The position numbers and the translations under genes are program-made. From an uncultured Methanomicrobiales archaeon (GTDB lineage Archaea; Halobacteriota; Methanomicrobia; Methanomicrobiales; Methanospirillaceae): a stretch of DNA of 64,000 nt. Location: the NCBI GenBank assembly GCA_903926075.1, contig CAIYHQ010000105.1:1-64000 (forward strand), read 5' to 3'. This document shows positions 21,372 to 32,378 of the stretch, piece by piece (the first letter of the stretch is position 1; each line of letters starts with the position of its first letter). The notes beneath the pieces are model-generated. The model worked only from the letters and a program-made list of their open reading frames with translations. It was not told the DNA's origin and did no database searches.

Positions 21372-22088
21372 TTATTTTACACCTTTTGCACAGATGTTAT
21401 ATGCAAGATAGGGTAATTTTTCCTCTATAAAAGATTCCATTTTTCTTGCAATGTCAAAGAGCGGGTCGACAAGGCTGATGTGAGCAAAAGAACATCTTTT
21501 AATGGCAATATCTGAATAACCGGCATTTTTAAAAAGCGAATACATCTCCTTTGTTGAATAATAATGTTCACCAAAGGAGCCGACGCCAATTTTTTTAACT
21601 TTAAGAATCTCTCCGATAGAATAGACTGCAGGAAGTCCGGAGGTGAAGAGGTTTTTACCGAGTGTACAGACCGCGAGAGTTCCCCCGGGCTTTAATATTC
21701 TGTAAACCTCGTCAAGCATTGATTGTGGATTATCAAGATAACTAAAGGCGAGAAGACTTGTACAGGTATCAAAAATTTCATCCTCAAACGGAAGGTGATC
21801 AGCGGTCCCTACAACAAAAAAATGGTCAGGTAGTCTTTTTATTGCTCTCTCAATCATTCTTTTTGATATATCAAGACCTGCAGCTTCACCTCGTGTATTA
21901 TATATTTCAGTAAAGAGTCCGGTGCCACATCCTATATCCAGCAAAAAACCTTTACCTGGGATTAGTGAGAGAATCGTATCAGAAATGTGAGTATAGTATA
22001 ATTTTCCTCTTTCTGCATCATAGCGGTTATCATACACTCCTGCAACCTCGTCATAATGCTCTCTTACTTTATGCAGCGCTCTTTTCAT
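21372..22088 (-). CDS. class I SAM-dependent methyltransferase
   Basis: The 238-residue protein has motif I LLDIGCGTGLFTEIY (about residues 48-62), the acidic AGLDIS loop, motif II (FDTCTSLLAFSYLDN) and motif III LKPGGTLAVCTLG near 135. A small inserted lid follows. The substrate cannot be read from the sequence. The closest general matches are UbiE/COQ5-like and small-molecule methyltransferases. Its start lies 20 bp inside the RFC paralog gene, so it is the last gene of a leftward cluster beginning at 27990. Confidence 0.82.
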   Translation of the reverse strand: MKRALHKVREHYDEVAGVYDNRYDAERGKLYYTHISDTILSLIPGKGFLLDIGCGTGLFTEIYNTRGEAAGLDISKRMIERAIKRLPDHFFVVGTADHLPFEDEIFDTCTSLLAFSYLDNPQSMLDEVYRILKPGGTLAVCTLGKNLFTSGLPAVYSIGEILKVKKIGVGSFGEHYYSTKEMYSLFKNAGYSDIAIKRCSFAHISLVDPLFDIARKMESFIEEKLPYLAYNICAKGVK

Positions 22089-23082
22089 TAAAAAACCTCC
22101 TGGCTATATGTGCGACGAGATCGTTCATATGGATATATTCATTATTTGCATGGCACAGCCTGTAATCAGTATCTGCTATAAGGCAGATAAGATGTGGATC
22201 ATAATATTCAAGTTCAATTGATCTTCTGACCAGTTGTAATACCTCTTGTGCGCTATACCCATATTCCAGCATTAATGTCTCAATTTTTCTTCTAGCTGTT
22301 GAATAATCATTATTCATCATGGCTGAAAACGCTGATTCTGCAATAATTATTCCTTTACGGGAGATTAATTTTAATAAGTCCAGAGATCCGCCACGAAACA
22401 AAGCCTCCAGAATAAGTACAGCTTTTCTAAGATCACCATTAGAGGCCCTTGCTATTAATGGAAGAGTATCACCATCAGCTAACAAATTTTGTGGAACAGA
22501 TTCAGAATCGATAATTTCGAGTAGAACTTTTATAATTGTCTCGTCATTATGTGGGAGAAAGAAGAATGGAAGGCACCTTGAACTCAGAGCCGGAATAATT
22601 GCACTTGGATTTGAGGTAACAAAGACAAACCGACAGGTTTTGTATGTGCTTTCCATCATCCGGCGTAATGCCTGCTGAGCATCACGTGGAAGCTTTTCTG
22701 CACCTTCAAAAACGAGTATTTTAAATTCAGTATCAAGAGGCTTTAATCTAGAGAATTCTTTAACTATTTTTTTAAAATTCCATATCAGTGCTTTATCTTT
22801 TTCATATATATGCGAAAATTTTTCTTTATTCTCCAGATATCTTTTTCCCTGTTGGAACATGTCACCAGTTTCTATTATTGTAAGATTTTCTTCTGCATGC
22901 CCACTGTAGAGTTCATTAGCAACGCACTCAATAGTTGTAGTCTTCCCGGTTCCGTGTGATCCTGAAAGAAGTAGGTGGGGGAGTGTCTCTTTTGCAACAA
23001 ATGATGAAAGCCTTGTAGTTATCGCTTCCTGCCCCAGGATTTCCGATAATTTTTGAGGACGGTATTTTTCAATCCAAAGCAC
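22069..23082 (-). CDS. RFC small-subunit paralog with altered Walker B
   Basis: The 337-residue AAA+ protein aligns with archaeal replication factor C small subunits from its [16 protein letters not shown] opening to the C-terminal collar. Walker A GSHGTGKTT (41-49) and the arginine-finger motif SSRC (167-170) are intact. Walker B reads FEGAE (125-129) where the canonical subunit at 31413 has LDEAD, so the catalytic glutamate is glycine. It probably binds ATP weakly or does not hydrolyse it, and could contribute its arginine finger to a neighbour in a mixed clamp loader. The start is GTG with GAGG upstream. It overlaps the phosphopantothenate synthetase gene by 14 bp. Confidence 0.85.
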   Translation of the reverse strand: MLWIEKYRPQKLSEILGQEAITTRLSSFVAKETLPHLLLSGSHGTGKTTTIECVANELYSGHAEENLTIIETGDMFQQGKRYLENKEKFSHIYEKDKALIWNFKKIVKEFSRLKPLDTEFKILVFEGAEKLPRDAQQALRRMMESTYKTCRFVFVTSNPSAIIPALSSRCLPFFFLPHNDETIIKVLLEIIDSESVPQNLLADGDTLPLIARASNGDLRKAVLILEALFRGGSLDLLKLISRKGIIIAESAFSAMMNNDYSTARRKIETLMLEYGYSAQEVLQLVRRSIELEYYDPHLICLIADTDYRLCHANNEYIHMNDLVAHIARRFFNEKSAA

Positions 23083-23800
23083 AATTAAGCCTCGTTATCA
23101 TATTATCTATAGCATTTTGCAGAAAATAAAAATTGTCAAACTCTTCTATTTCAGTCGTATTATTTCTCTCTTTAATCTCTTTAGCATATCTTATTATATT
23201 TGGCAGGGCTCTTGTGAGTTCATCAACAATAGTTAACCGGGCACAACGAGCCGTCCTTGAAAGTGGGTTAAGATCGATTGTAATTACAGTTTTTCCCATC
23301 TCTACAAGCGCCTGGCACCGGTCCCCGTCTTCAAGCGGAACTAATACTACATCTGCTTTAGGTATACCTTCCGTAAAGCATAATGCTCTGTCATGGCTCA
23401 GGGGCAGGTATTTTACAACATTACCTTTGAGAACTGATACTCCCTTACCCTCAAGAAAATTAGAAATTTTTAAAACTCTTTCTTCTGTTCTGTGAAAGAG
23501 ATTGACTTCGACATATGCACCTGTGATTTTTTGGAGTTCTGCAATTGCCTCGGCAGCAAGGGCACAAGTGTTTCCATTTACAGAAATTACAGGTTTATTT
23601 GCTAATATAAGTAAATTAGCAGCAATTTTTTCTGCTATAAGTGCTGATTCTGTCGTTTTTTCACCAATGAGATAATCAAACGCCTCACCCCGGCCGTGAG
23701 CGGTCAGCCCTTCAAGTGAAACAATCCCGGACATTGCACATTTTGAAAGTCTTTCACGGATGATTAGAGATTTGTACCTGGGGTGATCTTTCGGAATCAT
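23069..23800 (-). CDS. 4-phosphopantoate--beta-alanine ligase (phosphopantothenate synthetase)
   Basis: The 243-residue protein is the archaeal phosphopantothenate synthetase (former DUF137). It shows the IPKDHPRYKSL opening, the AHGRGEAFDYLIGE segment near residue 35, SVNGNTCALAAE near 75, and TIDLNPLSRTAR near 180. It joins 4-phosphopantoate and beta-alanine with ATP, the second step of the archaeal CoA route, directly after pantoate kinase. It follows the pantoate kinase stop by 4 bp and its own 3' end overlaps the RFC paralog gene. Length agrees with the family. Confidence 0.92.
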   Translation of the reverse strand: MIPKDHPRYKSLIIRERLSKCAMSGIVSLEGLTAHGRGEAFDYLIGEKTTESALIAEKIAANLLILANKPVISVNGNTCALAAEAIAELQKITGAYVEVNLFHRTEERVLKISNFLEGKGVSVLKGNVVKYLPLSHDRALCFTEGIPKADVVLVPLEDGDRCQALVEMGKTVITIDLNPLSRTARCARLTIVDELTRALPNIIRYAKEIKERNNTTEIEEFDNFYFLQNAIDNMITRLNCALD

Positions 23801-23804
23801 AATT

Positions 23805-24659
23805 TCACATCAGGATCTTAGGTCCGGAGTCTGACATTATCAAGGTCATCGGTTCTCCATACTTTGACAGGATATTCTGCGCATCTGTACCATATGCAAA
23901 TATTCCATGTCCAAGCATCGTCATACTTGCATAAATCCCTCGACTGTCACAATCCCTTAGTACTTCTTTGCAATTGTCTGGGATTAGTCCGCTATTTTCA
24001 GCAAATAAACGAGAGAGCAAAAAAAAATCTTCAGGGGTAGCAGGTTCAGTATAAGGAAAGGCCTCCTTAATTTTTTCGAGTCCTTTCTCACTTGATAATA
24101 CTTCTTTAGTTGAAAGAGCACCCAGTGTTAATGCTGTGATAGGTTTCACGAGGTCAAATGAGCGTTTTACAGATGCATTTATACCCGCTTTCGTTCTCCA
24201 CTCCCTCCCTCCTCCCCTTGATGCAGAGACATCACCAAGACCTGTTTTATTGATAATTTCAATCTCATGGGCAAGTTGTGAAATGGCATTCTCACTAAGA
24301 CCGAGTGAAAAAAGTTCATTCAATGCGATTGCTGTTGCAAGTAATGAAGCAGCAGATAATCCAAAACCAGAATAGAGTGGTAGAAAAGTCTGAGTTACAA
24401 CTGAAGCAGTCACACTAAGTTTCTGCAGAAGGGATTCAATAGTTCTGGACCCGGATATTTTCTCAATACATTTCCCTTCCCTGCAGTTTCGTTCAATTAT
24501 TATCTGGTTTTTATCAGATTTGGTCACAATAGCTGTAACACCCTCACTTATTACTATTCCTGCACCCATACTTCCTGAATCATAGATAGAGTCCCTGAAA
24601 ACCGGACAAAAGTAACCAGAGATATGTCCCGGACAGAATGCGGTTACACTCTTTGCCAT
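23805..24659 (-). CDS. pantoate kinase (GHMP family)
   Basis: The 284-residue GHMP kinase starts with the archaeal pantoate-kinase opening AFCPGHISGYFCPV. The phosphate-binding loop PLYSGFGLSAASLLA sits near residue 95 and the TGLGDVSASRGGG segment near 150. It phosphorylates pantoate to 4-phosphopantoate, replacing bacterial pantothenate kinase. Its start overlaps the end of coaBC by 16 bp, and the phosphopantothenate synthetase gene follows, so three consecutive CoA enzymes are produced together. Confidence 0.92.
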   Translation of the reverse strand: MAKSVTAFCPGHISGYFCPVFRDSIYDSGSMGAGIVISEGVTAIVTKSDKNQIIIERNCREGKCIEKISGSRTIESLLQKLSVTASVVTQTFLPLYSGFGLSAASLLATAIALNELFSLGLSENAISQLAHEIEIINKTGLGDVSASRGGGREWRTKAGINASVKRSFDLVKPITALTLGALSTKEVLSSEKGLEKIKEAFPYTEPATPEDFFLLSRLFAENSGLIPDNCKEVLRDCDSRGIYASMTMLGHGIFAYGTDAQNILSKYGEPMTLIMSDSGPKILM

Positions 24660-25777
24660 AGTTCGTGCGCAATCTCCTCTTTTGTACCTGAAAAATGTTC
24701 TTTCTGTCCTTCTCTCAAAAAGATAACTTCGCCTTTTTTTGCTCCTGGCATTTCAGCACTGTTTCCTACTACAAGACGAACTCCCTTTTGAAGTAGTGAA
24801 ATCCCGTCTTTTACAGGATTTCTACCTAATTTAAATGCAATAACAAAGATCTTATCATTTTGCAGCACTTTGTCAATAATTTTGGGGAACGGGAGGAGGG
24901 TAATGGTAGTTTCGAGTGAACCATCAAGTTTTCCCTCCTTTTGAAGTGGAATAAAGTCAGATATCGCTGCTGCACTGATAAAATAGTCGGGTTGATTTGA
25001 TTCTATCTCTTCCAATACTACATTTTCCATATCTTTCGCTGTAATGATATGTTTATTTTTTATTCCAGGAATTTCCTCTCCATTATGGATAAGTGTAACT
25101 TCTGCTCCAAGACGAAATGCTTCAAGGGAAATTTCCTTTCCCATCGTTCCTGTAGACCGCGTTGTGAGGACCCGGACATCATCGACAGCCTCTTCACATC
25201 TGCCACCGGTAATAAGAACTTTTTTTCCTTTTAATTTTGAATCAGAGAGAATTCTTTCACACCAGATTATAAGAGTACTTTCGCCCGCAACTTTTGCTTT
25301 TCCTTCTTCAAATCTCGGTCCTGCAATAGAAATTCCAAGTGAAGTAAGTGTTTTTAAGTGTGATAAAATAATTTTATTCCGAAACATACTTTCGTGCATT
25401 GCTGGAGCGAGAATTATTGGAATATCACTACCTAACGCAGTAGTTGCAAATGTAGTAACTGGTGTATCATCAATTCCGCATGCTATTTTTGCAATGGTAT
25501 TTGCTGTTGCAGGAGCAATAAGGAGTAAGGATGCGTCACCCCCTTCTCCACAAAACTTTACATGCTCAACATGACCTGAAATCCGGGTAATTGTTGTTCT
25601 CCCTGATGCATAGGTAAGAGAATCAGGTTGAATTATTCTTGTAGCTGCTTCGGTTATAACCGGCTGGACAATTGCCCCTTTACGGCGAAGAGAGTGGATA
25701 AGGCGGACTGTTTCCACAGCAGCTATACTTCCTGTTACACCCAGAACGATAAGTTTTCCTTCCAAAATCCTTGTCAT
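24644..25777 (-). CDS. coaBC: bifunctional phosphopantothenoylcysteine decarboxylase / phosphopantothenate--cysteine ligase CoaBC
   Basis: The 377-residue fusion has an N-terminal FMN-binding decarboxylase domain (GVTGSIAAVETVRLI, LLIAPATANTIAKIACG, and APAMHESMF near residue 125). The C-terminal ligase domain (from about 185) shows VLITGGRCEEAVDDVR, the STGTMGKEISLEAFRLGAEV nucleotide loop and SAAAISDF. It makes 4'-phosphopantetheine from 4'-phosphopantothenate and cysteine with CTP or ATP. It is coupled to the tRNA-modification gene (1-bp overlap, TAATG) and to pantoate kinase (16 bp). Confidence 0.95.
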   Translation of the reverse strand: MTRILEGKLIVLGVTGSIAAVETVRLIHSLRRKGAIVQPVITEAATRIIQPDSLTYASGRTTITRISGHVEHVKFCGEGGDASLLLIAPATANTIAKIACGIDDTPVTTFATTALGSDIPIILAPAMHESMFRNKIILSHLKTLTSLGISIAGPRFEEGKAKVAGESTLIIWCERILSDSKLKGKKVLITGGRCEEAVDDVRVLTTRSTGTMGKEISLEAFRLGAEVTLIHNGEEIPGIKNKHIITAKDMENVVLEEIESNQPDYFISAAAISDFIPLQKEGKLDGSLETTITLLPFPKIIDKVLQNDKIFVIAFKLGRNPVKDGISLLQKGVRLVVGNSAEMPGAKKGEVIFLREGQKEHFSGTKEEIAHELWQRV

Positions 25778-26646
25778 TATATCAGTCTCAGGTCATATGC
25801 CATATGCCAGACATTCGGACCATATTTTTTTACTTTACTCTCGTATATCCTGGCTTTATACCCTGAATCGGTTATAAAATATAAAATTTCATTTATGCTC
25901 TCTCCAATTGTGTGAAGATGAATAATAGATAACTCTCTCGTATGTTTCAAAGCAGACGGTAGAAAATCTTTCCAGTTAAAATGACCTATTATTATTCTGT
26001 CATATAATCCTCTCAAATTTTTTCTCGAGTCTCCACATATAGGATTCACTTCATTCGCAACTTTGTTTATTTTTATATTTTTCAATAGAAATTCGTATGA
26101 TTCTGGGTTAATTTCTATTGCATCGACATTGGCACCTCTTTTAGCAACCGTTATCGTAAAATATCCAATTCCTGCACACATGTCTGCTATTCTCTCTTTT
26201 GGCCTGATTTGAGTAGCGAGCCTCCTCTTCTCAGATCTGTTTCCCTGGGAAAATATCACTTTCATTGGATCGATACAATAAGCGATTCCATCTTCATTAA
26301 TACAAGTAACTCCTGGCACTCCATAAAGAAGCATAACATCCGGAATCCTTTTATCTCCATTGATGGACTGAAGCCAAAGGACCGCTTTAGGGTTTTCCCA
26401 TTCCACCAGATTTTTTATTTCAGTAGCATCAGGTCTTGGACCATGGATAATTATCTGGTCGCCTATCTTTTGGTAACCTCTTCCCTGATATGGTTTTTTT
26501 GGTGCAAGGAGTGAATCAGATTCAAAGCCAGGAAGCACAGGAATATATGCAATATCCTTGTTAACATAAATCCTACGGGAATGGTCAACCCATGGTTCTC
26601 GAGTATTGAGTGAAATATTTTTTTTGGGAATAATTCTTACCTGCAT
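25777..26646 (-). CDS. Trm5/Taw2 family tRNA-modifying enzyme, Taw2-like
   Basis: The 289-residue class I SAM protein has an N-terminal domain typical of Trm5/TYW2 proteins and the SAM motif IADMCAGIGYFTITVAKRG (about residues 150-168). In the motif where Trm5 methyltransferases carry an NLP sequence this protein reads DRIIIGHFN, which is nearer to the aminocarboxypropyl transferase Taw2. It would then add the side chain to 4-demethylwyosine at position 37 of tRNA-Phe. The DPMKVIFSQGNRSEK segment is conserved in both groups. The gene lies between nmd3 and coaBC in one cluster. Confidence 0.75.
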   Translation of the reverse strand: MQVRIIPKKNISLNTREPWVDHSRRIYVNKDIAYIPVLPGFESDSLLAPKKPYQGRGYQKIGDQIIIHGPRPDATEIKNLVEWENPKAVLWLQSINGDKRIPDVMLLYGVPGVTCINEDGIAYCIDPMKVIFSQGNRSEKRRLATQIRPKERIADMCAGIGYFTITVAKRGANVDAIEINPESYEFLLKNIKINKVANEVNPICGDSRKNLRGLYDRIIIGHFNWKDFLPSALKHTRELSIIHLHTIGESINEILYFITDSGYKARIYESKVKKYGPNVWHMAYDLRLI

Positions 26647-26649
26647 TTA

Positions 26650-27693
26650 TCAGCCTACAATGATAGACTCATTTTCGGCGTCTAGGACAAGAACCTGTTC
26701 TCCAATGTTAAAGTGTCTCCACCGCGGAATTTTAAATTCTTTGGTTATACCTTTTTCATTATCCATAAGCCCTAATATGTCACCATCTTCATAGACGACA
26801 ATATAAACATAGGCGTTGTTAACGTTCCCAACCACAGATTCAACATCATCCGATTTTCCCACCCGTATTGAACCATCATTCAGGTCAGTATACCGGAATT
26901 CATTAGAACCGGGTGAGAGGACTTCTGCAAATTTTTTCTTGATTTTTATAATATCTCCTCTTCTCAATAACGGGAGGCGAAAAGAATAAGTTATCCTGTA
27001 AACCGGTATGCCTGCTCTCTCCCCGACAAGTTTGGGATGAGTGGTATATCTTCCTCCCAGGCGGTTTTTAAGCGATTGTATTATTTGTTGGGCAAGATTC
27101 TGGGAACCAACAATAATATCCATTCCTTCTTTATCGATATCTATTGATGCAATAAATGCAAGACGGTTTCCAGCCTCGTGAAGTTCTTTTTCAGTCTCGT
27201 ATGCAATATTTTTCACGAGTTCACTTTCAAACGGGGACAATTGCCTGTCAGTTCCCCTCACCTGGATTATTGCTTCATAATAGCTTCCGCTTATCCGGTT
27301 GCAACGATCACACTGTTCTTTTTTAAAGGTGACTGTTGATCTGAATGGTTCTTCTTTTTCCTTTTTATTTACAGTTCCTTTTACTGAGCCTATGAATGTT
27401 CCCCGGTTTGAGCTTTCCTCGATGAAATTTGATAGTATAATTTCAGGTAAATTTACATTTTTATTGAACTGAATTTGGTGGATTAACTGCTCCCGGCTAA
27501 ACTCAACTGGGTTATGAGTATAATCTTCCCAATGTGACCCAATTTTATATGCTCCGCAGGTCGGGCAGACCGTAATAAAAAAACGTTCAGGTACTATTAC
27601 CCAGTACTCGTGAACAGAGTTGCAATTTGCGCATATTTTTCCATCATTTGATAACTGCCCGCATTTTGGGCAGATTGCATCTTTTATATCCAT
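26650..27693 (-). CDS. nmd3: NMD3 family protein (ribosome assembly)
   Basis: The 347-residue protein opens with zinc knuckles (CPKCGQ, CANCN, then CPTCG and CDRC at about 130), the arrangement of NMD3. A central basic domain and a C-terminal OB/SH3-like region (RRGDIIKIKKKF, VGKSDDVESVVG, GEQVLVLDAE) follow. Eukaryotic NMD3 is an export adaptor of the large ribosomal subunit. The archaeal form is thought to bind the large subunit during assembly or quality control. It follows the DUF424 gene by 3 bp and precedes the Taw2-like gene by 3 bp. Confidence 0.88.
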   Translation of the reverse strand: MDIKDAICPKCGQLSNDGKICANCNSVHEYWVIVPERFFITVCPTCGAYKIGSHWEDYTHNPVEFSREQLIHQIQFNKNVNLPEIILSNFIEESSNRGTFIGSVKGTVNKKEKEEPFRSTVTFKKEQCDRCNRISGSYYEAIIQVRGTDRQLSPFESELVKNIAYETEKELHEAGNRLAFIASIDIDKEGMDIIVGSQNLAQQIIQSLKNRLGGRYTTHPKLVGERAGIPVYRITYSFRLPLLRRGDIIKIKKKFAEVLSPGSNEFRYTDLNDGSIRVGKSDDVESVVGNVNNAYVYIVVYEDGDILGLMDNEKGITKEFKIPRWRHFNIGEQVLVLDAENESIIVG

Positions 27694-27696
27694 AAT

Positions 27697-27990
27697 TTAA
27701 ATCCTGTATACCTGGGCGTGAGGGACTTTATTAATAAAAATACATGAGTTAATATCAATTATTCCTATGGAATTGGCCAATGAAATAACCCGATTACCTA
27801 TGAGATTAAGGTTTGATGCGTGTTCCATGGCATCTATAACTGATTCCTCTGTAGAGATAGTATTACCATAAAAATTTTCAGAAATTGTGATACAAATCTC
27901 CCCATCCCTGATTGTAGTATTAAGAAGTTCACGGTCACATACTGCTACAATATCATTGCCTGATGAAATATTGTGGACCTTCAGGTACAT
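27697..27990 (-). CDS. DUF424 family protein
   Basis: The 97-residue protein shows the DUF424 (COG2412) pattern: MYLKVHN at the start, VAVCDRELLNTTI near residue 15, a central IDAMEHASNLNLIGNRVISLA helix, and HAQVYRI at the very end. The family is found across euryarchaea beside translation genes and has no proven activity. It is the first gene of the leftward cluster with nmd3, the Taw2-like gene and the CoA genes, so the promoter must lie in 27991-28065. Confidence 0.85.
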   Translation of the reverse strand: MYLKVHNISSGNDIVAVCDRELLNTTIRDGEICITISENFYGNTISTEESVIDAMEHASNLNLIGNRVISLANSIGIIDINSCIFINKVPHAQVYRI

Positions 27991-28065
27991 TACTTAACAT
28001 GGGATTTTATAAATAAAAAATTGTAGGAAAGGTACTTATATTATTTTTATAGGTTTCATTGATTA

Positions 28066-28905
28066 TCAAATTTCAATATCTACCCCATATATTGCTGATG
28101 GGGTGGTTGAATGAATTCTGAAAGCGGTTTTTTCAGTCATGGACCCTTCATTAATCATAACTTTTGTAACTCTTGGCACAGATTTAGGCCCGACAACCGA
28201 ACCTGGTCGCGAATTCTCATCCATATAATCACTTTCCAAAGTGAATTCCCTGCCTGAAAGCAGGATCTCTCTGACTAAGTCAGTTTTTGCAATAATGGAG
28301 GGCGAAAGAGGAGTGTTTTTATCGGCATAGTGTTTGACTATCTTTTTTACAGGCATCGAATAATTATTTGCGATATCGATAATATCCTCACACGGACCTG
28401 ACTCTGCATGTATTTGTAAAGCACACCCTAGATCCGTTGCGAGGCTGATTGCATGGGTAAGAATGCGATTAGAAGCATCCATGATGTTATCGGTGACAGG
28501 ATAATGAGGCCTTCCGCTTTTCAAGGCAACTGCAGAGCCGTCCTCCACAAATTGTGCCGCCAGGGTAAGTCCGTCTTTCATAATCTCTTCAGAACGCTGA
28601 AGACTTGTTTCTGAAGAAAGCCAGGATATTTCTGCCGGGTGAATGCCAAGGACAGGATAAACAATTAATCCTGTTTCCCTTATCTCTTCAGCAATGTTCA
28701 GAGTTTCTTCAAAGATTTTTCTATAACTTTCACCATCTACAGGGGAAAATCCAAATGATGAGGAAGGTTTTGAAACAAGGAAGATATGAGTCCCCCCGCT
28801 ATTCAAAAAGTCCTTTGCGGCTTTTAATCCTCTCCCGTTCCTTTTATCGATATGAATATGGTCATCGGTTATTGGAAAAGAATTTGATTTATCTGCCAAT
28901 TTCAA
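28066..28905 (-). CDS. TatD-related metal-dependent hydrolase (COG1099)
   Basis: The 279-residue amidohydrolase-fold protein begins with DDHIHID, the first metal-binding pair. It continues with PVLGIHPAEISW near residue 88, LQIHAESGP near 163, KIVKHYAD near 190 and ESDYMDEN near 222. These correspond to the metal ligands of the TatD/PHP-like TIM barrel in the archaeal group COG1099. The substrate is unknown. The start must be TTG (28905 or 28899), with GGAG just upstream, and lies inside the 3' end of mptD (17-bp overlap). Confidence 0.8.
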   Translation of the reverse strand: MKLADKSNSFPITDDHIHIDKRNGRGLKAAKDFLNSGGTHIFLVSKPSSSFGFSPVDGESYRKIFEETLNIAEEIRETGLIVYPVLGIHPAEISWLSSETSLQRSEEIMKDGLTLAAQFVEDGSAVALKSGRPHYPVTDNIMDASNRILTHAISLATDLGCALQIHAESGPCEDIIDIANNYSMPVKKIVKHYADKNTPLSPSIIAKTDLVREILLSGREFTLESDYMDENSRPGSVVGPKSVPRVTKVMINEGSMTEKTAFRIHSTTPSAIYGVDIEI

Positions 28906-29221
28906 TTATCTCCATAAGGGGGTAATCATCAACCTTTTTTAATTTTGCCTTACAGTTTGCTCCCCCTATTTCAGTTTCTACAACGATATCAAGCATAGTA
29001 CCTGCAATTTCACTATAGCCATACGAATTAGGTTGGATAAGGGAACGATCAATCCTTGCGGTAATTTTTTTGACACCTGGCTGAAGCTTAACACTATTCT
29101 CTATTGCGGCTTCGATATACTCAGCGGTTTCAATAGAGACCGGTGTTCCTACCCACTGGTGATAGAGCGCTCCTAATTTAATTCCTGCTTCGAAAGCTGC
29201 CCGCTCACTATCATTTATCAT
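28889..29221 (-). CDS. mptD: archaeal dihydroneopterin aldolase MptD
   Basis: The 110-residue protein matches the archaeal DUF381/MptD family: an N-terminal helix with AAFEAGIKLGALYHQWVGTPV and a short beta core ending in DYPLMEIIEIG. MptD cleaves 7,8-dihydroneopterin to 6-hydroxymethyl-7,8-dihydropterin and glycolaldehyde in methanopterin synthesis, and is not related to bacterial FolB. It lies 67 bp downstream of mcm and overlaps the TatD-like gene. It is direct support for a methanopterin-using archaeon. Confidence 0.9.
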   Translation of the reverse strand: MINDSERAAFEAGIKLGALYHQWVGTPVSIETAEYIEAAIENSVKLQPGVKKITARIDRSLIQPNSYGYSEIAGTMLDIVVETEIGGANCKAKLKKVDDYPLMEIIEIGR

Positions 29222-29288
29222 AGCTGAAAGAGGGTTATTCTGTAAGTATAAAACACCAGTGAATGTAATGAATGAAAAAAAATGAAGA

Positions 29289-31412
29289 TCAGATCAACCT
29301 TATAGAACCCTTTCGTGGTTCAACAATTTCTCCCGCCTCTTTTAATAAATCAATTTGGTGACTGATATCTTCATGTAAATAACCCAGTTTTGCTACAACC
29401 TTGATAACTTCCTCAATTCTTGCTTTTTCTTCTATATCATACAGTTCTTTGATTGTATTTTTAATATCATGAACAAGGGCACGTTTTCCTTTTGAATATC
29501 CTGTTATAGCCCTGTCCATATCAATAGTTCCTGTTTTTGAATCATATGCTATCTGACGCAGACATTTTTCAACAATATTAACCACTCTTTCTGCATCACT
29601 TCTTTCTATAGTAGAAGATAACCGGATGCGTGCGCTCGCTTCAGCCAGTCTCACCAGTGCTTCAAGCTGGCGTGCAGTCACAGGGACAGGATTTGCAGAG
29701 CTTGAAAAACTACGCAATTTCATGTAATACTCGATTAGAACTATCTTTGCATCTTCGGATATCAAAGGGAAACAATTCCTTTTTGCATATGCAACATATT
29801 TTCTGAAGAGTGAAGGATCAATTTCGGGCATTACCGGTCGTAATTGCTGCTCAATATAATCATCATCCACTCCTGTTATGGGTGAACGTTTATGCTGCTC
29901 TATTACCTCTCCAATTGAATGCGAACGAATAATATGCTCCGCAATAGCATGGTCGAGGATAAGGTTTGGCTTATCCGTCATCACAAATATCAGGTCAAAA
30001 CGGGAGAGGAGAGATGGAGGCATGTTAATCTGTTCCGGGATAGGAACATACTCGTCAAAGCGCCCCATCTTCGGATTTGCTGCCCCAAGAAGGGCACACC
30101 TGGCACGAAGCGTTGCAGTAATACCTGCCTTTGCAACACTGACTGATTGCTGTTCCATAGCTTCATGTAGAGCGCTCCTGTCATCTTTATGCATCTTATC
30201 CATCTCATCAATTGCCGCAACACCCATATCTGCAAGGACAAGCGCTCCGGCTTCGAGAGTCCAGCGTCCATCTCCGAATTCATCCTTCACCGCTGTTGCT
30301 GTAAGGCCGGCAGATGTTGAAGAATGTCCGCTTGCATATATGCCTCTTGGTGACAGCTTTACAACATACCTTAGTAATTGGCTTTTTGCAATACCAGGAT
30401 CACCAATAAGGAGAACATGAATGTCGCCCCTCAGATTTGTGCCATCAGGCATCTCTTTTAGGATTCCTCCAAATACCTGGTATGCAATTGCTTCTTTTGG
30501 CTCTTCATTTCCATAGATAGAGGGAGCTATCGAATTGATTATCTTTTTATAAATAAGAGGGTCTTTAGATAGTTTTATTATCGCTTCTTCATCGCTTTCA
30601 TCAATTTCAACCTCTTCAAACTCTTTTTCGCCTATTTCAATAGAATTGCATTCAACATAGATATCGAAAAGAGTGCTCTTGCCACTCTGGTTTATTTTCT
30701 GAACAGATCTTGGAATTCCATTTATTGTGACCCTGTCACCAGGGGCTAAAAGTCCGGTCAGATCATCGGTTACATCTACATCGATTGTCTGAGGCTGTTC
30801 TCCTCCTCTTAATCCTTCCTGGGACTCCTGGACCCTTAATTTCTGAGAATCAACAAATGTTGAACGTTTATTTACAATTTCAAGTTTTTTAAAATTACAT
30901 CCGTCTGTAGCACATTCATCTGGGTCTATAAATTTTCCATATCCCTGAATTTTATAAGTCAGGTGTCCGGCTGCACACCTGAAAACTGCCTGTACGATTC
31001 TAGGCCTAACTTCAGTAGTTTTTCGGATAATCCCCTCTAAACTGATAAATTTTCCTATATCATCAGACCGGATATTGCGAATTAATAATTTTCGAGGAAG
31101 GTTGATAAAACGAATATTAATTTTATTTTGCTCTTTTTCGTCTTTTGTCTTTATAAGATGATGATTTCTTATTGATGCCTGGATATCGGCAATAACTTTT
31201 CCGGGATTTAGAAGAAGCTCATCTGCAAGCCGGATTCCAGTCTTACCAGAACTTTCAATCTCTTTATAATCAATCGTGAGTGAACATGAAAACGGGTATT
31301 CACGTGAAAGAGTTGCCAACGCCTTTTTGTAGCGTGTGCGTAAAAACCGGCTCCATTCGGCATCTCTATCAGTTACTTCTATGTCCTGGGATTCATCAAT
31401 AAGTTCAGCCAT
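29289..31412 (-). CDS. mcm: replicative DNA helicase MCM
   Basis: The 707-residue protein has the N-terminal MCM domain with a zinc-binding segment (FRCAAGH, then DECATDGC, about residues 147-177). The AAA+ core carries GDPGIAKSQLL (Walker A), LVLADMGVAAIDEMDKM (Walker B), LGAANP (sensor 1) and LLSRFDLIFV (arginine finger). A C-terminal winged helix (GYLHEDISHQIDLL) completes it. It unwinds DNA as a hexamer at archaeal replication forks. The zinc motif has CX3H in its first half rather than CX2C. The gene starts directly after the RFC small-subunit stop, so clamp loader and helicase are co-expressed. Confidence 0.96.
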   Translation of the reverse strand: MAELIDESQDIEVTDRDAEWSRFLRTRYKKALATLSREYPFSCSLTIDYKEIESSGKTGIRLADELLLNPGKVIADIQASIRNHHLIKTKDEKEQNKINIRFINLPRKLLIRNIRSDDIGKFISLEGIIRKTTEVRPRIVQAVFRCAAGHLTYKIQGYGKFIDPDECATDGCNFKKLEIVNKRSTFVDSQKLRVQESQEGLRGGEQPQTIDVDVTDDLTGLLAPGDRVTINGIPRSVQKINQSGKSTLFDIYVECNSIEIGEKEFEEVEIDESDEEAIIKLSKDPLIYKKIINSIAPSIYGNEEPKEAIAYQVFGGILKEMPDGTNLRGDIHVLLIGDPGIAKSQLLRYVVKLSPRGIYASGHSSTSAGLTATAVKDEFGDGRWTLEAGALVLADMGVAAIDEMDKMHKDDRSALHEAMEQQSVSVAKAGITATLRARCALLGAANPKMGRFDEYVPIPEQINMPPSLLSRFDLIFVMTDKPNLILDHAIAEHIIRSHSIGEVIEQHKRSPITGVDDDYIEQQLRPVMPEIDPSLFRKYVAYAKRNCFPLISEDAKIVLIEYYMKLRSFSSSANPVPVTARQLEALVRLAEASARIRLSSTIERSDAERVVNIVEKCLRQIAYDSKTGTIDMDRAITGYSKGKRALVHDIKNTIKELYDIEEKARIEEVIKVVAKLGYLHEDISHQIDLLKEAGEIVEPRKGSIRLI

Positions 31413-32378
31413 TTATGCCTGTGGTGCAGTAATTACGAATCTTGCAATTAATGCTTCCATCTGGATATCACTGTTTGCCCCTTCTGAAAGCCGGAAATCC
31501 GTCTCTCCTATGTGATCAATCATTCTGACTTTCAGGTCTTCGGGAATCTCCCGGAGGACAAGAGACCTGTAACATTGAAAAAGAAGTTCCTGTGGAGCAA
31601 TACCTCTCTCTGATAGAAGGTGCCTGAGAAGTAAACCGGCACCAAGGAAGTCTTTCTTCATACAAAGGTTAAGTAGATCTTCAATCTCTCCTGGGAGAGC
31701 CGTTGCAGTTATAGAGAAAATTCTATCAGAATTAATTTTGTTACCAAGAATGGCCGCTCCCTGAAGAGCATTAATAGCTTTACGCATGTCTCCCTGTGAA
31801 ATATATGTAAGCGCATCAATTGCATCAGGTTCCACAAACAGACCTTCTTTTTTTGCTATATTCATTATCTCCTCATTTATATCCTCGCGAACAAGAGGTT
31901 TGAACCTAAAAATTGCACACCTGCTCTGTATCGGGTCTATTATCTTTGATGAGTAATTGCAGGAAAGGATGAACCTGCACGAAACTGCATAACTTTCCAT
32001 GGTCCTTCGAAGAGCTGCCTGTGCATCCGTTGTAAGTGCATCGGCTTCGTCGAGAAAAAGTATCTTAAAGCTGGATTCACCAAAAGGGGAAGTTCGGGCG
32101 AACTGCTTTATCTGGTTACGTACGACATCAATTCCACGTTCATCAGATGCATTCATCTCCCTGAAGTTCATGTTCCAGTTATCCCCAAAGAGTTCCCTTG
32201 CGAGTGCTATTGCGGTTGTTGTCTTCCCTATGCCGGCATTTCCCGAAAAAAGAAGGTGAGGAAGGTTTCCACTCCTGACATATGACTGGAGTCGCTCAAT
32301 TATCTGGCCCTGTCCGATAATTTCAGAAAGTTTTTGAGGCCTGTATTTTTCTATCCATATCGCATGTGAGTCATCCAT
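31413..32378 (-). CDS. rfcS: replication factor C small subunit (catalytic)
   Basis: The 321-residue AAA+ protein has [16 protein letters not shown], Walker [10 protein letters not shown] (46-54), Walker B LFLDEAD (107-113), sensor 1 SCNYSS and the arginine finger SRC. All are canonical for the ATP-hydrolysing small subunit of the PCNA clamp loader. The large subunit is not in this window. It is the first gene of the rfcS-mcm transcript. An ATATATAT element about 25 nt upstream of the ATG suggests a leaderless message. Compare the degenerate paralog at 22069. Confidence 0.95.

Follow-up and report, generated by a model that had tools for sequence, protein, structure and literature searches.

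The window analysed here, a 64,000-nucleotide stretch of DNA from an uncultured Methanomicrobiales archaeon, encodes two small subunits of replication factor C (RFC), one canonical and the other a paralogue with an eroded Walker B motif. The genes concerned, and the motifs of the paralogue, are the following:

31413..32378, minus strand: rfcS1, canonical RFC small subunit with LDEAD, the partner (480 bits against NF001679, cut-off 303)
29289..31412, minus strand: mcm helicase gene, next to rfcS1 on its downstream side, named by sequence reading
23069..25777, minus strand: coaBC and the genes for pantoate kinase and phosphopantothenate synthetase, all upstream of rfcS2 and in one run with it
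22069..23082, minus strand: rfcS2 (replication factor C small subunit 2), 337 amino acids, GTG start
22936..22962, minus strand: Walker A GSHGTGKTT, intact, residues 41-49, placed by alignment with the paralogue
22795..22860, minus strand: RfcS2-specific insert MFQQGKRYLENKEKFSHIYEKD between Walker A and Walker B, residues 75-96, edges approximate
22696..22710, minus strand: eroded Walker B FEGAE (canonically LDEAD) within KILVFEGAEKL, residues 125-129
22651..22683, minus strand: DAQQALRRMME helix, kept, its Gln, Arg-Arg and Glu almost invariant in RfcS1 and RfcS2
22606..22623, minus strand: degenerate sensor-1 region FVTSNP (LSCNYS in RfcS1)
22573..22584, minus strand: SRC arginine-finger motif SSRC, kept, residues 167-170
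22420..22437, minus strand: sensor 2 GDLRKA, arginine kept, residues 216-221
21372..22088, minus strand: methyltransferase gene, sharing 20 bases with the 3' end of rfcS2

At its other end, rfcS2 is overlapped by 14 bases by the phosphopantothenate synthetase gene. The order rfcS1-mcm-...-coaBC-pantoate kinase-phosphopantothenate synthetase-rfcS2-methyltransferase (window positions 21372-32378) is conserved in most full-length Methanomicrobiales loci, and the methyltransferase adjoins rfcS2 in most loci of the order; at Methanocorpusculum loci, neither the rfcS1-mcm end nor the methyltransferase was found within the stretch examined. The surroundings of rfcS2 look like ordinary operon packing, and we claim no functional link to coenzyme A synthesis.

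By its sequence, the window protein is an ordinary RfcS2, an archaeal subunit that is already known. It scores 329.2 bits against NCBIfam NF009067, the RfcS2 family, above the curated cut-off of 317, and 205 bits against the RfcS1 model NF001679, below the cut-off of 303, and Pfam recognises AAA+, lid and Rep_fac_C domains. The AlphaFold2 model (pLDDT 93.9) finds its best Foldseek matches in RFC small subunits, among which the E chains (Rfc5) rank under the other subunits yet have the lowest rmsd. The TM-scores are near 0.57, probably reflecting differing domain angles, and RFC subunits all score alike, so that position in the ring is not discriminated by them.

Alignment with the in-window RfcS1, to which the protein is 38% identical, bears out the original prediction that FEGAE stands in place of LDEAD, with the catalytic glutamate replaced by glycine and with Walker A and SRC retained. 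The corresponding RfcS1 motifs are GNAGIGKTT, LDEAD, IQSRC and GDMRKAI. Relative to these, the Mg-binding aspartate of Walker B has become glutamate, as has the fourth residue of the motif, and the sensor-1 asparagine of RfcS1 (N141) lies opposite Ser157. Sequencing error or chance can be ruled out as the source of FEGAE, because the relatives show this E-G pair more often than any other Walker B state: it occurs in 39 of 155 RfcS2 proteins and is followed by D-N (37) and E-D (32).

The original prediction had proposed alignment as a check on how general the Walker B change is, and in RfcS2 it proves to be general: among open reading frames collected across the phylum, 150 of the 155 RfcS2 lack an intact D-E pair and five keep it, and all 155 have the arginine of the SRC motif. 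The intact pair is present in 87/87 RfcS1, a set for which a Walker B beginning with LDE was one of the selection criteria, and an LDE start is likewise found in every small-subunit-type open reading frame assigned to RfcS1 by score alone. With weighting for redundancy, about 18% of the RfcS2 of Methanomicrobiales type retain the glutamate, against 9% of other RfcS2, and in most of the proteins that retain it the adjoining aspartate has changed. Columns invariant in RfcS1 but lost in RfcS2 include D110, E111 and D113 of Walker B and N141 of sensor 1, whereas S152-R153-C154, Q120, R124, R125 and E128 are kept (all in RfcS1 numbering), the coupling-helix residues being Q136, R140, R141 and E144 in the window RfcS2. 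The losses thus fall on the cis ATP site, which has decayed, and the finger-side columns are spared; the diversity of the Walker B replacements (G, D, N, S, C and A) fits relaxed constraint. Across the surveyed proteins, Walker B decay with the finger kept is the rule for RfcS2 and not an oddity. The wording differs by clade, with FEGA or FEDA in Methanomicrobiales, DNAE in Halobacteria-type genomes, and DNAE or DSAE together with SRG in a family (f8) that is probably Methanosarcinaceae. The subunit itself was detected at E ≤ 0.001 in each of the 41 genomes examined from the order and family (Methanomicrobiales), with 39 of the 41 over the curated cut-off; in at least one of the two genomes below it, the matches listed were RfcS1-like only.

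Several proteins depart from the common pattern. The five RfcS2 with an intact DE are L141 (Methanocalculus by name), L064 and L065 (probably also Methanocalculus, to judge from their grouping with L141 in a first-pass tree), and L124 and L140 (Methanogenium and a Methanoculleus MAG). They are nested among eroded RfcS2 and might represent either reversion or retention, and in L065, L124 and L140 the SRC is replaced by SRS, SRA or SRT. The presence of DE in these few implies that inactivity is no fixed requirement. In the window's own family, L063 (genome G019) and L068 (G005) have lost the Walker A lysine (GPSGSGRMS and GPGGSGRMS) and kept the Walker B glutamate, a path of decay opposite to the usual one. 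The RfcS2 of family f8 (L073-L079) have SRG for SRC, mostly an NSGK-type Walker A and a longer insert. L213 (G049) is a very divergent RFC-like protein with an RfcS2-type insert and SRC kept, in which Walker A is not recognisable (GQKDSVKQN) and Walker B reads LFEAD.

The insert, of about 22 residues, is common to the RfcS2 families examined and absent from RfcS1. Its presence is reflected in the spacing from the Walker A lysine to the Walker B acid, which is 78-81 residues in Methanomicrobiales RfcS2 and at least 79 in the Halobacteria-type proteins vs 56-58 in RfcS1; the exception is L215, a truncated divergent copy in which it is shorter. A core of the form D-x-F-x-x-x-K-x-x-[LI]-x-x-D-x-R-F, which in the window RfcS2 reads DMFQQGKRYLENKEKF, is common to Methanomicrobiales, Halobacteria-type genomes and family f8, the name Halobacteria, like the assignment of f8, resting on sequence type and genome size. 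The AlphaFold2 model and the alignment place the insert after the NASD-like motif and predict it to be helical. No description of it was found in the literature examined, a scope outside which the key biochemical papers lie, and we claim no priority.

Chia et al. 2010 (PMC2880001) could not settle whether RfcS2 had a single origin or several. A careful tree, built without the Walker B and insert columns and replacing the quick first-pass tree, splits RfcS2 from RfcS1 by a branch with 100/100 support that occurs in 200/200 bootstrap trees, with the window protein among the RfcS2; its alignment excludes fragments, the RfcL row L161 and the divergent L213 and L215. When halobacterial RfcS1 are joined with RfcS2 in one clade, the resulting topology is rejected in an AU test (p 0.0018, with only two halobacterial RfcS1 rows). 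The branch and the test favour a single origin, that is, that RfcS2 arose once.

How does such a protein fit into a clamp loader? It is very probable that RfcS2 serves a three-component RFC (three RfcS1, one RfcS2 and one RfcL) as its specialised small subunit in the terminal place, a stator at the E position that has an inactive site and donates an arginine finger. In the ring, RfcL would occupy position A, the three RfcS1 positions B-D and RfcS2 position E, forming four composite sites; RfcS2 would adjoin the last RfcS1 and face RfcL over the clamp gap. The SRC arginine of RfcS2 would extend into the adjoining RfcS1 and complete the ATP site there; the site of RfcS2 itself would be left with no finger donor, so that Walker B and sensor 1 would be free to decay, and nucleotide would probably still be bound as a structural ligand, given the intact Walker A. 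The M. acetivorans RFC complex has RFCS1:RFCS2:RFCL at 3:1:1 (PMC3984812), and Methanosarcina RFCS2 has one RFCS-RFCS binding site only (PMC2880001). In clamp loaders generally the E subunit receives no partner finger for its own site, which in RFC binds nucleotide but is inactive (PMC3331839), and yeast Rfc5, whose site is likewise without a finger, carries D141N in Walker B (PMC3740443).

The large subunit of the window genome (L083) has an intact Walker A and Walker B (GKPGTGKTS and LLDEAD), reads RKRC where SRC would stand and carries the PIP-like sequence QKTLFDTY at its C-terminus; its pattern is the mirror image of that of RfcS2. The window RfcS2 carries the signature of a non-hydrolysing stator, with the Walker B pair lost and the SRC arginine kept, and we infer both its E position and the loss of its ATPase, although for an E-G pair in which the Walker B acid is glutamate, inactivity cannot be proven from sequence alone. 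Walker A or SRC mutants of Methanosarcina RFCS2, in work by Chen et al. in 2005, reportedly still loaded clamps in vitro, and the finger of RfcS2 may therefore be non-essential.

The original prediction had offered either a mixed archaeal clamp loader or an alternative one. The former, with a non-hydrolysing finger donor, fits the sequence evidence and the 3:1:1 complex, and this part we retain. The latter would place RfcS2 in a second loader (Ctf18-, Rad17- or Elg1-like), apart from the replicative RFC, and could appeal to the existence of two small-subunit genes and to the position of rfcS2 about 8 kb from rfcS1, amid other genes. It seems very unlikely, and we have rejected it: profile searches of the assembly, which is ~97% complete, found one RfcL and one PCNA and no further large subunit or clamp, which speaks against a separate loader. 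Nearly all Methanomicrobiales genomes searched have both RfcS1 and RfcS2, the relative described in the literature forms a single 3:1:1 complex (PMC3984812), and the alternative loaders of eukaryotes swap the large (A) subunit and share the small subunits B to E (PMC8893722).

It is similarly improbable that RfcS2 still hydrolyses ATP, with an aligned acidic or other residue in the role of the lost glutamate. The intact Walker A and sensor 2 and the presence of E126 at the Walker B acid speak for this, as do the five RfcS2 that keep DE and the few more that keep the glutamate alone, but both Walker B acids vary freely in the family, sensor 1 is lost, and E-position sites of other clamp loaders get no finger in trans (PMC3331839). 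Nor does the gene look like a decaying duplicate of little function, a reading to which we give hardly any weight even though the branch is long (0.92 changes per column) and the catalytic motif eroded, since the gene is present with intact frames in all relatives searched, the SRC arginine and the coupling helix are invariant, and the insert and the gene order are conserved.

The terminal finger donor of a mixed loader is thus our preferred reading of RfcS2, and the analysis confirms that the clamp loader of one archaeal group includes a small subunit dedicated to a stator-like role. The RfcS1/RfcS2/RfcL loader would be intermediate between the two-protein archaeal and the five-protein eukaryotic forms, and the survey indicates which residues are freed from constraint once a small subunit has taken a permanent place at the ring's end. 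It also yields the shared insert and the tree test of a single origin. A more speculative proposal, which we regard as possible but doubtful, is that after a single origin in the phylum RfcS2 converged independently on the solution of delta-prime and Rfc5, its ATP site being dead, its finger kept and its lineage-specific insert serving as an analogue of the E-plug that would contact DNA or PCNA inside the central chamber. If true, the clamp-loader stator would have originated independently one more time, in RfcS2.

Comparison with known systems places the window protein closest to its archaeal namesakes. Bacterial delta-prime (HolB) is a terminal, catalytically inactive stator with SRC kept, but it is a different family, the window RfcS2 scoring 53 bits against TIGR00678 with its cut-off of 180.6. 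Eukaryotic Rfc5 (the yeast name; RFC3 in human), the E subunit of RFC, resembles RfcS2 in its eroded Walker B (INEAN in yeast, with D141N), its kept SRC and an additional segment between Walker A and Walker B. That segment, taken as the E-plug hairpin region, lies before the NASD-like motif, where no such hairpin was found in the window RfcS2; homology of the two insertions was rejected, as they occupy opposite flanks of the motif, one a hairpin and the other predicted helices. Nor is Rfc5 the closest solved RFC subunit in sequence, since the best phmmer match is archaeal RFCS (145 bits vs 83 bits for yeast Rfc5), and by this best match RfcS2 is not the orthologue of Rfc5. Archaeal RfcS1, or the single RFCS, shares the fold and domain order of RfcS2 and is its opposite in keeping LDEAD and the sensor-1 asparagine and in having no insert. 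With archaeal RfcS2 (NF009067, including M. acetivorans RFCS2 and the haloarchaeal second RFC small subunit), the window copy shares the curated model, the place in the tree, the insert, the motif pattern and the co-occurrence with RfcS1 and RfcL, and the wording of Walker B differs between the clades.
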